NCBI GenBank assembly: GCA_003242895.1
Contig: QKMY01000022.1
Span: 1-55,602, forward strand
Source: Candidatus Margulisiibacteriota bacterium
Lineage (GTDB): Bacteria > Margulisbacteria > Riflemargulisbacteria > GWF2-39-127
Direction of reading: 5' to 3'
DNA length: 55,602 nucleotides
The position numbers and the translations under genes were made by a program. Within the stretch, counting starts at the first letter, position 1; the number at the start of each line of letters is the position of its first letter. Below are positions 4,866 through 30,173 of the stretch, piece by piece. The notes under the pieces were generated by a model. It did no database searches. It was not told the DNA's origin and saw nothing but the letters and a program-made list of their open reading frames with translations.

Positions 4866-5720
4866 ATGAACAATAGCTCGAATCAAAAAGCTAAGATTAT
4901 TACTATTACTAGTGGCAAAGGCGGCGTAGGCAAGTCCCTGTTCTCAGTTAACTTTGGTATCGCCTGTGCTAAACTTGGGAAAAAAGTATTGATTATTGAT
5001 GGAGACCTTGGTTTAGCCAATATACACATACTTACCAACACACACCCGGAACATGATCTGCTCGACATTTTAGAAAAAAGAAAAAAGATAGAAGATGTCA
5101 TCATATCAGGTCCGGAAGGGGTCCATATCATTCCAGGGGCTTCAGGGATTTTCAAACTATCAAATACAACTCATGCAAAACGACAGCTCCTTATCGATGA
5201 ATTCTCAAAACTAGAAGACAGATACGATTTTATAATTATTGATACCGAAGCAGGAATTTCCCATAACGTCATTAAATTCGTTTCTATTTCAGATGAAACA
5301 ATAGTTATTACCACCCCGGACATCACAGCCATGGCTGATGCTTACGCAACGATAAAGGTTATTAACTCCAAAAATATTACATCAAAAATATCGATTGTTA
5401 TCAACAGAATAAAATCTTTTGAAGAAGGAGAAGCAACTTACAAGAAAATCTCACTTGTGTGCGAAAAGTTCTTATCCTTAAATGTTCACAAGCTAGGATT
5501 TGTTTTCGATGATACAACCACAGTCAAGCTCGCAATAAAAAAACGAATCCCCTTCATATTGTCATTCCCAAAATCAAAAGCATCAATTTCTATCAAATCC
5601 ATAACATCATCATTTTTGGGATTATCTATAAATACTATCGAGCCAAAAATCTTCCTTAATAAGCTAGCTATGCTGATTACTCATCCTATAAAAAAAGAAG
5701 AGTTAGTGCTAAAGTCATAG
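4866..5720 (+). CDS. flhG: FlhG/YlxH-type MinD-family ATPase
   Basis: 284-residue ParA/MinD-superfamily P-loop ATPase. It has the deviant Walker A GKGGVGKS at 17-24, DGDLGLANIHIL (switch region, about 46-57) and DTEAG near 137-141. The DLGLAN segment and the GPEGVHIIPGASG stretch are typical of FlhG, which sets flagellar number and place together with FlhF. AAGGAG at 4853-4858 selects ATG 4866 over ATG 4862. It stands alone, away from the flagellar operon, and no flhF is in the window. The C-terminus lacks an obvious MinD amphipathic membrane helix, so membrane binding is unclear. Another MinD-like role is possible. Confidence 0.8.
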   Translation: MNNSSNQKAKIITITSGKGGVGKSLFSVNFGIACAKLGKKVLIIDGDLGLANIHILTNTHPEHDLLDILEKRKKIEDVIISGPEGVHIIPGASGIFKLSNTTHAKRQLLIDEFSKLEDRYDFIIIDTEAGISHNVIKFVSISDETIVITTPDITAMADAYATIKVINSKNITSKISIVINRIKSFEEGEATYKKISLVCEKFLSLNVHKLGFVFDDTTTVKLAIKKRIPFILSFPKSKASISIKSITSSFLGLSINTIEPKIFLNKLAMLITHPIKKEELVLKS

Positions 5721-5748: not shown

Positions 5749-8565
5749 ATGCAAAAGTTAAATTGGTATTTAATAGTTACTCTTGTATTCTTTTGTACTT
5801 TGATCTCGGCAACTGTTTTTGCCGAAGATCTATTTTATGACTTAACTATTTCCATTGCAGATAACTTCTTTATTTCAGGCAATAATAGGGTTTCGATAAC
5901 CAACACATCGTCAGCTAACCTAAGGGAACTAATAATCCAGCTACCACTTAATATGGACAAAAAAATGGATCCTAGGACTGATCCTTCCCGGTATGACTAT
6001 TCCTATCCAAAAGGATTCGAAGAAAGCGCTACCTACATTAATGAAGTAAAATCGGAGGGTCGAAAACTTGAGTTTTCATATATCGACGAAGAGGACCCTG
6101 CCGTAGGGACAGTGGGGAACAAAAACTATGCGATCGTGTTACTGCCAAATGATCTGCCACCGGGAAAACTAATTACGTTTGATATATCGTTCTCCTCAAT
6201 TATCCCAACAAAACTCGGTAACGGGAAATACAACGGAGTCCTCTACCTGCAAGGCATGTGGTACCCAACTATTGCAAATTATACGCAGCAAGGTGTATTT
6301 CAAAGAAACAATGAACATTTCAAACAGGCTACTTATAAAATAACGGTCGCCAGCTCTCCAAATCTCGAAGTGGTTACAGGTACAGAGCTAATAACGATAC
6401 AGAAATCAGGGTCCGCGATAATCCGCGAGGGCACTATCAGGAACCCGATTTCATTGCTCCCTCTTTTTGCCTCGGAAAAAATTAAAAAATTCAGACATAC
6501 CTACAAAAACCTTGTTATTGACTCTTATTATCTACCTGGAGATGAAGCTTACGCTTCGTTCTCAATACAAGTTGCAGAGCGGGCTTTAAATTACTACAAA
6601 GATTTCTATAAGCTTGAGTTTCCATCAACTCACCTATCAATAGTAGACAATTACATGGGTTCTCAATCTGCATACAGCGCGGGCAATACTATATTCATGC
6701 CCAGAGAGTTGAGACGGCTTCCATCACTTTTTTCTCGGATATACGAAGTCATCCTCGCACACGAATTCGGACATATGTGGTGGGGCTTAACTGTGAGCTA
6801 TGGATTTAATGAAGATAACTGGATTGGCGAAGGACTATGTACCTTTTTTATGAATAAATACTTTGAGAATAGATACGGGATATCTCATAATCTTCTCAAT
6901 GTGCCAAAAGGTGAACATATCCCAAATTACACATTTGAAGAATTCTTTACATATCTCCCGTACCGTGAGCTTGCCGTAAGGAATCAAGACCCTCCCCCTT
7001 CTTCTGATAGAAAAAAATCGTCTGATATTTCAGCATTAGTTACAATGCAATATCAGAAAGGATTTTATATTTTCAATATTCTCTACCAGGAACTTGGAGA
7101 TAAAAAGTTTATAGAGCTTCTTCATTATTTACTCAATAATTATTCGCATAAGATACTAACAACTTCCGATCTTCTTGAAGCTATTAGTAAGGTCTCAGGA
7201 AAAGACTATTCAAAATTCTTTGAGCAATGGGTATACTCAGGGAAAACCTTTGATTATGAAATAACCTCGTTACAAGCTGCCTTAAATCCATCTTTCAACG
7301 TTATTAGCAGGGTAAATATAAAAAATTCCGGGGATATAAATGCACCGATGGTTATACAGGCAACCGATAGCAATAATAATGTTTATATCGGAAAATCTAC
7401 CGGCAAAAGCGCTGAAACAATTGAGTTCATTACATCTTCTCCCATAAAAGAAGTGATCCTAGACCCGAACAGAACGTATCCTGATATATACAGGCTCAAC
7501 AACTATTACCCGACTAGGTTTAAAGCAGCCCCATATATAGCTGTTCCTGAGTCAGATGCTTACTACCTCTCAATTAGACCATCATTCGTAATCAGCAATC
7601 TCGGGAGCTATAGCGCTGTCCAGTTAAACTATGGATATCTCGACGATTTCAACTTATCGCTCGATAATAACTCGCAGACTGACTATTGGCAGGTTTCTTA
7701 CATGAAAACCAGGCTCCTTGACCCAAAACTGGCATTTTTTAGCACCTATAGAACGTTACGAGGGATACAGAACTCAACTGCCGGGTTCAATTATTATTGG
7801 AATCATGTGCAGGAGCAAATCACGTATCCGGGAACCTTCCTTACCGTTGCTTACCAATCTGAAGATCTCTACAAATTTGTATTGCAAGATAAATTCGCAA
7901 AGTTCTATGGGTTTTATTCGTACCTGGACTTACAGAAAACCAGCCATGCAAACAAACTTATTGTAAATTTTGCGCAGAAATATGGGTTAACGCCGCTTTC
8001 TAACTCTTATTATTCCATCGACTACGAATACAATAGAAAGTTTCTTGGTTCAGACCATGATTTTGATCAAACTATTTTTGGTTCCGGGATTTCTTTTCGC
8101 GCCGGACATTTAAAAAGCATCACAGTTCAAAATATTACAAAATTAAGTAAAGGCTTTACCCCAGAAGAGAAATTTTATTATCTTTACTCCACGTTTGATG
8201 GACTAAGGGCGGTTTCGAGATATAGAGATACTAATGACCATAATAAAAACTTTTCTTTATTTCGCACATCATTTAATATGCCTCTTGCAGCTAATCTCTA
8301 TGATATACCGGTACTTTCCAGCGAGTTATGGCTGGAAAGTATATATTTTTCCTTATTCCATGAATGGGGCGCACTTTCAGACTCACCACAACGAATATTC
8401 AACTCAAACTTTAATAAAACAATCGGTTTCGAGTTCGATTTTAACGTACTCAGCTTCGGACAATTCCCTATCTCACTTAATCTCATTTGGGCCAGAGCTG
8501 TTCCAAACCACAATGCGCATAAAGAGCCTATCTACTTCACGTTGGGTATTAATAGCATTTTCTGA
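5749..8565 (+). CDS. M1-family metallopeptidase fused to a C-terminal outer-membrane beta-barrel
   Basis: 938 residues. A Sec signal peptide (about 1-26, cut near VFA-ED) leads a gluzincin domain with HEFGH at 338-342 and the third zinc ligand E361 in GEG, spaced as HEXXH-x18-E. A Tyr in the MQYQKG segment (about 440) matches the M1 catalytic Tyr. The GAMEN motif that binds the substrate N-terminus is not visible; the equivalent stretch reads SQSAYSAGN, so classical aminopeptidase activity is doubtful. After about residue 600 the sequence becomes alternating, aromatic- and Asn-rich beta-strands and ends in Phe, as outer-membrane barrels do. The barrel is an inference from pattern. It lies 28 bases after flhG. 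Confidence 0.8.
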   Translation: MQKLNWYLIVTLVFFCTLISATVFAEDLFYDLTISIADNFFISGNNRVSITNTSSANLRELIIQLPLNMDKKMDPRTDPSRYDYSYPKGFEESATYINEVKSEGRKLEFSYIDEEDPAVGTVGNKNYAIVLLPNDLPPGKLITFDISFSSIIPTKLGNGKYNGVLYLQGMWYPTIANYTQQGVFQRNNEHFKQATYKITVASSPNLEVVTGTELITIQKSGSAIIREGTIRNPISLLPLFASEKIKKFRHTYKNLVIDSYYLPGDEAYASFSIQVAERALNYYKDFYKLEFPSTHLSIVDNYMGSQSAYSAGNTIFMPRELRRLPSLFSRIYEVILAHEFGHMWWGLTVSYGFNEDNWIGEGLCTFFMNKYFENRYGISHNLLNVPKGEHIPNYTFEEFFTYLPYRELAVRNQDPPPSSDRKKSSDISALVTMQYQKGFYIFNILYQELGDKKFIELLHYLLNNYSHKILTTSDLLEAISKVSGKDYSKFFEQWVYSGKTFDYEITSLQAALNPSFNVISRVNIKNSGDINAPMVIQATDSNNNVYIGKSTGKSAETIEFITSSPIKEVILDPNRTYPDIYRLNNYYPTRFKAAPYIAVPESDAYYLSIRPSFVISNLGSYSAVQLNYGYLDDFNLSLDNNSQTDYWQVSYMKTRLLDPKLAFFSTYRTLRGIQNSTAGFNYYWNHVQEQITYPGTFLTVAYQSEDLYKFVLQDKFAKFYGFYSYLDLQKTSHANKLIVNFAQKYGLTPLSNSYYSIDYEYNRKFLGSDHDFDQTIFGSGISFRAGHLKSITVQNITKLSKGFTPEEKFYYLYSTFDGLRAVSRYRDTNDHNKNFSLFRTSFNMPLAANLYDIPVLSSELWLESIYFSLFHEWGALSDSPQRIFNSNFNKTIGFEFDFNVLSFGQFPISLNLIWARAVPNHNAHKEPIYFTLGINSIF
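8312..8341 (+). repeat. Perfect 11-bp inverted repeat inside the peptidase-barrel gene
   Basis: TACTTTCCAGC (8312-8322) and GCTGGAAAGTA (8331-8341) flank an 8-base loop. It codes for part of a predicted beta-strand hairpin, so it could be chance, or a local RNA structure. Confidence 0.5.
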
Positions 8566-29096: not shown

Positions 29097-30173
29097 CTAC
29101 AAAGCGCGAGGCTGCCGTTTTTGTTTTTTGATCTCGTAAACAAAGGCCAGTACTTCTGCGACAGTCCGGTACAGATCAAAAGGCACCTCTCCACCAATCT
29201 CAGCAGAAGCAAAAAGAGCCCGAGCCAACTCAACTTTTTCAACAATAGGAATATTATTCTCTTCCGCAATTGCCTTAATCTTTTCAGCCAACTTCAATTG
29301 TCCTTTGGCTATAACCTGAGGTGCTTTCATTATCGAAGCATCATATTTAATTGCCACAGCGATATGTGTCGGGTTCGTCACAACAACATCTGCACTGGGG
29401 ACTTTGCCCATTCCTCGAGACATAGCTGCCTCACGTGCCATCTGACGCATTCTCTGCTTGATTTGGGGATCTCCCTCAAGTTTTTTATACTCTTCTTTGA
29501 TCTCCTGCTTCGACATGCGCATTCCCTTCATAAATTCATATCTCTGATAAAAATAATCCAGCATAGCAATCATCAAATAAAAAATACCAACCCTGGTTAC
29601 AATTCTCATAACAATTTCGCCAGTCAACCTCATAAAGGCCATCAAGGGCAATGAACTTACGGTTAATATCTTATGTATATCCGCAAAAATAGCTTTATAG
29701 GTAATCCACAACACTATTCCGATTTTCGCTAACGATTTAATGAGCTCAATAATTCCTTTCATAGAAAACATTCGCTTAAACCCTTCAAGAGGGTTAATTT
29801 TAGATAGTTTTGGCATGAGCGGATCAGTAGAAAAGTTAAACTGTGTCTGAAGAATTTCTGCTAAAACTGCTACACCTAAAATTGTTAGAAAAAGCGGTGT
29901 TAAAACTTTGAAAAACGTAAAAACAGCCTGAGTAAGCAGAACACCAAAAATACTCGCAGTAAGGGGTTTGGATATAAAAGAGTAGTTAAAATAGAGGTAC
30001 TTGTTAATCTCTTCCCACATCATGGGAGCATTGGCCTTCAATACGTAATAGGAGGAAAGCAGCAGGAATGCCGTAGTTACTTCCTTACTCTTAACTATCT
30101 GGCCCTTTTTTCTAGCCTCCCTTAATTTGTGCGGGGTAGGTTCCTCTGTTTTATCTCCGGCTTGCTCGCCCAT
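29097..30173 (-). CDS. flhB: Flagellar export switch protein FlhB
   Basis: 358 residues with four membrane helices and a cytoplasmic autocleavage domain. The NPTH site is intact in VVTNPTHIAVAIKY, so the hook-length substrate switch should work. The N-terminus GDKTEEPTPHKLREARKKGQI is typical. It acts with FliK, encoded in the same operon. About 190 bases to flhA hold no gene. Confidence 0.97.
   Translation of the reverse strand: MGEQAGDKTEEPTPHKLREARKKGQIVKSKEVTTAFLLLSSYYVLKANAPMMWEEINKYLYFNYSFISKPLTASIFGVLLTQAVFTFFKVLTPLFLTILGVAVLAEILQTQFNFSTDPLMPKLSKINPLEGFKRMFSMKGIIELIKSLAKIGIVLWITYKAIFADIHKILTVSSLPLMAFMRLTGEIVMRIVTRVGIFYLMIAMLDYFYQRYEFMKGMRMSKQEIKEEYKKLEGDPQIKQRMRQMAREAAMSRGMGKVPSADVVVTNPTHIAVAIKYDASIMKAPQVIAKGQLKLAEKIKAIAEENNIPIVEKVELARALFASAEIGGEVPFDLYRTVAEVLAFVYEIKKQKRQPRAL

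Follow-up and report, generated by a model that had tools for sequence, protein, structure and literature searches.

A GAMEN-less family of M1-type metallopeptidases with a probable Omp85-type barrel in place of helical domain IV

A 55,602-nt stretch of DNA from a Candidatus Margulisiibacteriota bacterium (hereafter the window) carries an ORF of 938 aa with an ATG start (5749-8565, + strand) that encodes a GAMEN-less M1 metallopeptidase followed by a C-terminal domain that is probably an outer-membrane barrel of the Omp85 type. The idea that this architecture is peculiar to one protein did not hold, as about a hundred relatives were found in several phyla. Inferring topology, activity and substrate from these data, we give a probability of roughly 0.6 to the whole reading, namely that a periplasmic M1 unit is mounted on an Omp85-type barrel and acts as an active endo- or oligopeptidase.

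Results

Gene and export signal

A AAAAGGAAA element is located about 10 nt upstream of the ATG at 5749. The gene is preceded, at a distance of 28 bp, by a gene for a MinD/ParA-family ATPase (4866..5720, + strand; Pfam AAA_31, E=1.7e-21; TIGR01969 MinD below the cut-off). Both genes are on the + strand, while their neighbours are mostly on the - strand. The ATPase gene and the M1 gene are possibly co-transcribed; their linkage was not kept in the relatives examined. Read by eye, the N-terminus MQKLNWYLIVTLVFFCTLISATVFA-ED resembles a signal peptide of residues 1-25 (5749..5823, + strand), as an earlier reading of the sequence alone (the sequence-only reading) had proposed.

An M1 peptidase with an invariant catalytic site

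Pfam analysis placed Peptidase_M1 (PF01433) at residues 271-494 (E=4.1e-17; 62.9 bits vs a cut-off of 27.7), and the best solved relatives among the PDB profiles, matched over the catalytic part, were puromycin-sensitive aminopeptidase (PSA), ERAP1 and tricorn factor F3. The assignment to the M1-type metallopeptidases made from the sequence alone is thus borne out. The final residues of PSA domains I, II, III and IV are 253, 503, 594 and 914, respectively (PMC10343166), and domains I to III of the window protein are placed in the same way. Domain I, the N-terminal β domain, spans residues ~26-250 (5824..6498, + strand; approximate boundary) and matches both the family alignment and PSA domain I (51-253; PMC10343166). 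The catalytic domain II, which contains the Pfam match, covers residues ~251-500 (6499..7248, + strand), and the Ig-like linker, domain III, covers residues ~501-585 (7249..7503, + strand), ending with DPNRTYPDIYRLNN; D572, P573 and N585 of this domain are invariant in 38 members. Residues ~586-938 fill the position of helical domain IV.

The zinc site HEFGH is formed by residues 338-342 (6760..6774, + strand) and the third zinc ligand is Glu361 (6829..6831, + strand), so that HEFGH-x18-E reads HEFGHMWWGLTVSYGFNEDNWIGE (residues 338-361). The catalytic Tyr435 lies in the motif YQK (residues 435-437; 7051..7059, + strand). All of H338, E339 (the general base), H342, E361, Y435 and K437 are unchanged in 98/98 aligned members from several phyla, which agrees with and extends the earlier identification of the zinc site and the catalytic Tyr. 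Given that the zinc site is intact and strongly selected, the protein is most likely an active zinc peptidase.

Loss of the GAMEN glutamate in the whole family

Profile alignment places residues 307-311, SAYSA (6667..6681, + strand), at the GAMEN motif. The subfamily profile consensus WGMAADGL aligns with GAMENWGL of glutamyl aminopeptidase, and in the family alignment the window protein has Y where GAMEN has M and Ser310 where it has the Glu. None of the 98 members has Glu at this last position; the residue there is Ala in 59, Thr in 32, Ser in 6 and Gly in 1. The absence of GAMEN noted from the single sequence is therefore confirmed and applies to the family at large. Since the Glu is absent in 98/98 members while the catalytic residues are invariant, its loss is, judging from the alignment, an old and fixed trait of a family that retains its catalytic machinery. 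We considered the missing motif as a defect of a single gene and rejected this, as the whole subfamily lacks the Glu and its zinc site is invariant.

The accompanying statement that M1 enzymes normally carry GAMEN needs qualifying: the motif marks the M1 aminopeptidases rather than the entire M1 fold family, many M1 relatives have GMEYP instead, and some lack the Glu altogether. One protein of the same class as the window, L004, reads AGEEFPG at this place and apparently retains the Glu; the M1 tree places it outside the GAMEN-less clade, and the C-terminal region of this same-class relative (L004/L148) gave no match to the family profile. Another GAMEN-less M1 lineage, without a barrel, is represented by L006 and L007, which have YGMPSYTLLG instead of GAMEN.

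A C-terminal domain probably related to Omp85 barrels

The C-terminal region (residues 586-938; 7504..8562, + strand), which ends in ...YFTLGINSIF, is probably an Omp85-type outer-membrane barrel that has diverged in the window protein and replaces helical domain IV, judging from profile comparisons and amphipathicity. With E-values that are single-pair and moderate throughout, so that the barrel is probable and not proven, hhalign matched the C-terminal region of the window protein to the family C-terminal profile (E=1.9e-5 with 7 relatives and 5.6e-4 with 97 relatives), the family profile to the BamA barrels of the window's phylum (E=7.1e-5 over 142 columns, with flush C-terminal ends), and the GAMEN-less family, window included, to M1-barrel proteins that have a VRGY loop (E=2.4e-6). 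The BamA match scored 40.6 (44.7 when trimmed), whereas none of 30 block shuffles exceeded 30.0 and the reversed profile scored 20.6. The window barrel alone gave E=0.51 against BamA; hhalign with single sequences remained at chance level, the signal coming only from the deeper family profiles, and a direct BLAST comparison of this barrel with L003 or L014 yielded no significant alignment. Residues 819-825, LRAVSRY (8203..8223, + strand), align to the VRGF loop in a BamA-like protein encoded by the same genome and appear to be a degenerate counterpart of the VRG(F/Y) loop. This loop is degenerate in most GAMEN-less members; L003 keeps IRGY, and L050 has IRGI.

Strand amphipathicity was positive in 37/37 family members; their mean z of 1.85 lies between the values of the family catalytic domains (-1.24) and of BamA barrels (2.84). 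When averaged over the divergent family alignment it was modest (z=2.4). The alternating β-strand pattern ending in Phe that had been described for this protein is consistent with these values in the family as a whole and with the C-terminal Phe, but taken alone the window protein is weakly above chance (z=0.9).

Several searches returned nothing for this region. Pfam gave no match in the last ~440 residues of the window protein, residues ~586-938 included, no Omp85 match (PF01103) for the window protein or 25 subfamily members, no POTRA domain in the window protein, where domain III abuts the barrel, and no autotransporter β-domain for the C-terminal region at E up to 10. Searching the PDB profiles with the GAMEN-less and the GMEYP C-terminal families yielded no match. 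Given residues 585-938 as its only input sequence, AlphaFold2 reached a pLDDT of 32 and gave no usable fold, and coevolution analysis (98 sequences, Neff 74) gave similar scores for antiparallel and parallel segments, with noise too high for strand pairing. The fusion to a barrel proposed from the sequence alone therefore stands insofar as a probable barrel, of a family with a profile match to BamA, stands in the place of helical domain IV; a closed barrel is putative.

These null results in Pfam and the PDB, together with the weak amphipathicity of the window protein alone and the fact that in one phylum the last residue of many members is Leu, Gly or Met rather than Phe, would also suit a soluble β-rich C-terminal region (a β-sandwich or tandem sheets). 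The protein would then be an M1 peptidase that is secreted or periplasmic and has no membrane anchor. We regard this as unlikely, as it leaves unexplained the 142-column match to BamA, in which the ends are flush and the VRGF loop falls into line, the positive amphipathicity in every member scored, and the IRGY retained in L003.

Distribution and phylogeny

A single-sequence search recovered L003, a full-length relative from the same phylum, along with distant ones. A related-locus search found one short relative in genome contigs and none in viral contigs. A profile built from eight sequences matched proteins in 96/100 genomes of the G272 phylum, most of them over nearly all 914 positions, that is, over both the M1 and the C-terminal part. 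It also matched in 6/7 genomes of the G249 phylum, which is probably Dictyoglomota; Dictyoglomus-like genomes are among those with members, and a few more occur elsewhere. The M1 part and the C-terminal part are thus co-conserved in two phyla. Within the phylum of the window the gene has a scattered distribution, occurring in the window genome (G000), G012, G039 and, at a contig break, G007.

A separate and abundant set of M1-barrel proteins of about 930-1110 aa (L021, L014, L028-L044, L054-L060, L067 and L073) carries GMEYP and was found in the G082 phylum and elsewhere. Many of these proteins have a VRGY loop, seen as VRGYQDR, 2/21 members have Pfam Omp85 matches (up to 4e-5), and their profile matched the BamA barrels found in the window's phylum (E=2e-6). 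In the M1 tree, the window protein joins 15 further barrel proteins that lack GAMEN (SH-aLRT 96), and the GMEYP barrel proteins stand apart; M1 proteins without a barrel separate the two barrel clades, a pattern compatible with one or two gains of the fusion.

Envelope and gene neighbourhood

The window genome has two BamA-like Omp85 genes in tandem (C24:29814-32582; L024 and L025, starting at 29814 and 31695), and at least one Omp85 gene was found in 37/38 genomes searched; therefore, an outer membrane with a BAM machinery is expected. Genomes of the window's phylum often carry two or more Omp85 genes. A search of the window's own genome for LptD found none, and an LPS-type outer membrane is therefore not assumed.

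In a Dictyoglomus-like genome (L141:4509-9294), the M1-barrel gene follows genes for an ABC-ATPase and an ABC-2 permease in one run, and in a different phylum (L142:4184-8843) it precedes a GldA/F/G-like ABC-2 set (names assigned by eye). This suggests a link of the M1-barrel protein to an exporter in some lineages. In G007 (L148:1-5260), an M1 C-terminal piece with the C-terminus YGLSFMF lies at the contig start, followed by TolC-like, HlyD/MacA-like and MacB-like genes (also named by eye). The gene neighbourhood was considered as a general clue to function and rejected because it is not conserved; with a MinD-like ATPase gene upstream in the window and ABC-2 genes in L141 and L142, it fixes no substrate.

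Discussion

The window protein shares with the M1 aminopeptidases PepN, PSA, ERAP1 and tricorn factor F3 the order and similar lengths of domains I to III, the HEXXH-x18-E site and the catalytic Tyr, but it differs from them in lacking the GAMEN Glu, in its probable export and in having a probable barrel where they have the HEAT repeats of helical domain IV. We propose that Sec would export the protein and that BAM would fold the C-terminal ~350 residues, on the strength of the profile matches, into the outer membrane as an Omp85-type barrel. The M1 unit (domains I-III) would then lie on the periplasmic side, attached at the place that helical domain IV usually occupies. There, close to the outer membrane, it would most likely make internal cuts in peptides or in unfolded stretches of protein instead of trimming N-termini. 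We favour an endo- or oligopeptidase because the GAMEN Glu has been lost for good and no domain IV closes the cleft. The role proposed for the GAMEN Glu is to hold the N-terminus of the substrate (PMC10343166, PMC13039773), and some M1 enzymes cleave internally even with this Glu (PMC13039773). AplP and NosP are M1 enzymes with endopeptidase activity, NosP retains GAMEN, and barrels are not described for them in that work (PMC13039773).

The sequence-only reading had left it open whether the protease faces the surface or the periplasm. A periplasmic M1 unit is more likely, because an Omp85-type barrel leaves both ends in the periplasm and because in PlpD, an enzyme-Omp85 fusion, the patatin domain remains in the periplasm (PMC11116518); an outward orientation found no support. 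Such an orientation would follow if an autotransporter-like barrel exported the M1 part to form a surface protease, one of the two options named in that reading. An N-terminal passenger followed by a C-terminal barrel and the Phe at the C-terminus would be in keeping with this mechanism, which we nevertheless hold to be improbable: an Autotransporter Pfam match is absent, the likeness is to Omp85, whose N-terminal domains are periplasmic, the patatin of PlpD included (PMC11116518), and the junction of domain III and the barrel has no evident helical linker. Equally doubtful is an assembly or translocation factor in which the M1 fold would stand in for POTRA as a substrate-binding module and proteolysis would be secondary; an Omp85-type barrel without POTRA, a near-universal presence in one phylum suggestive of a basic envelope role, and ABC-2 exporter genes alongside in two lineages speak for it, but the catalytic residues conserved in 98/98 members point to catalysis, and most members have a degenerate VRG(F/Y) loop.

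Fusions of enzymes to Omp85 barrels have precedents. PlpD-type patatin-Omp85 proteins likewise carry an enzyme N-terminal to an Omp85-type barrel, and by analogy with them the M1 unit is placed in the periplasm; the window protein differs in having an M1 zinc peptidase rather than a patatin, no detected POTRA and a far more diverged barrel. A survey of the superfamily (Heinz and Lithgow 2014) lists ten subfamilies, including patatin, WD40 and 'Metallo' (PF00149), some of them without POTRA, and the word 'peptidase' does not occur in it (PMC4104836). The 'Metallo' and WD40 subfamilies also have a non-POTRA N-terminal domain on the barrel (PMC4104836), whereas that of the window protein is PF01433. 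The same arrangement, domains I-III with a C-terminal barrel, is found in the GMEYP M1-barrels, but those retain the motif Glu and mostly a VRGY-like loop, and form a separate clade. Searches confined to openly available full-text papers turned up no account of an M1-Omp85 protein or of this GAMEN-less family. The claim of a new architecture thus holds for the M1-Omp85 type within the literature covered, but not for enzyme-Omp85 fusions as such, of which patatin is a known case.

A bolder and rather speculative extension, to which we give little weight, is that the family is a widespread and so far undescribed kind of machine of the Omp85 superfamily, in which a GAMEN-less zinc peptidase replaces POTRA, acts jointly with the barrel and cuts substrates during their export, insertion or removal at the outer membrane. 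In some diderm phyla that have received little study, this protease would then be central to quality control or maturation in the envelope, possibly in connection with ABC-2 exporters.

If the periplasmic M1-barrel reading is correct, the Omp85 superfamily would gain a branch that bears a peptidase, M1 domain IV would prove exchangeable for a membrane barrel, and an entire family would have given up the residue to which M1 enzymes owe their aminopeptidase character. As nearly every genome of one phylum has the gene and Dictyoglomus-like thermophiles have it too, the envelope biology of poorly studied diderms would become testable through a single, expressible protein.
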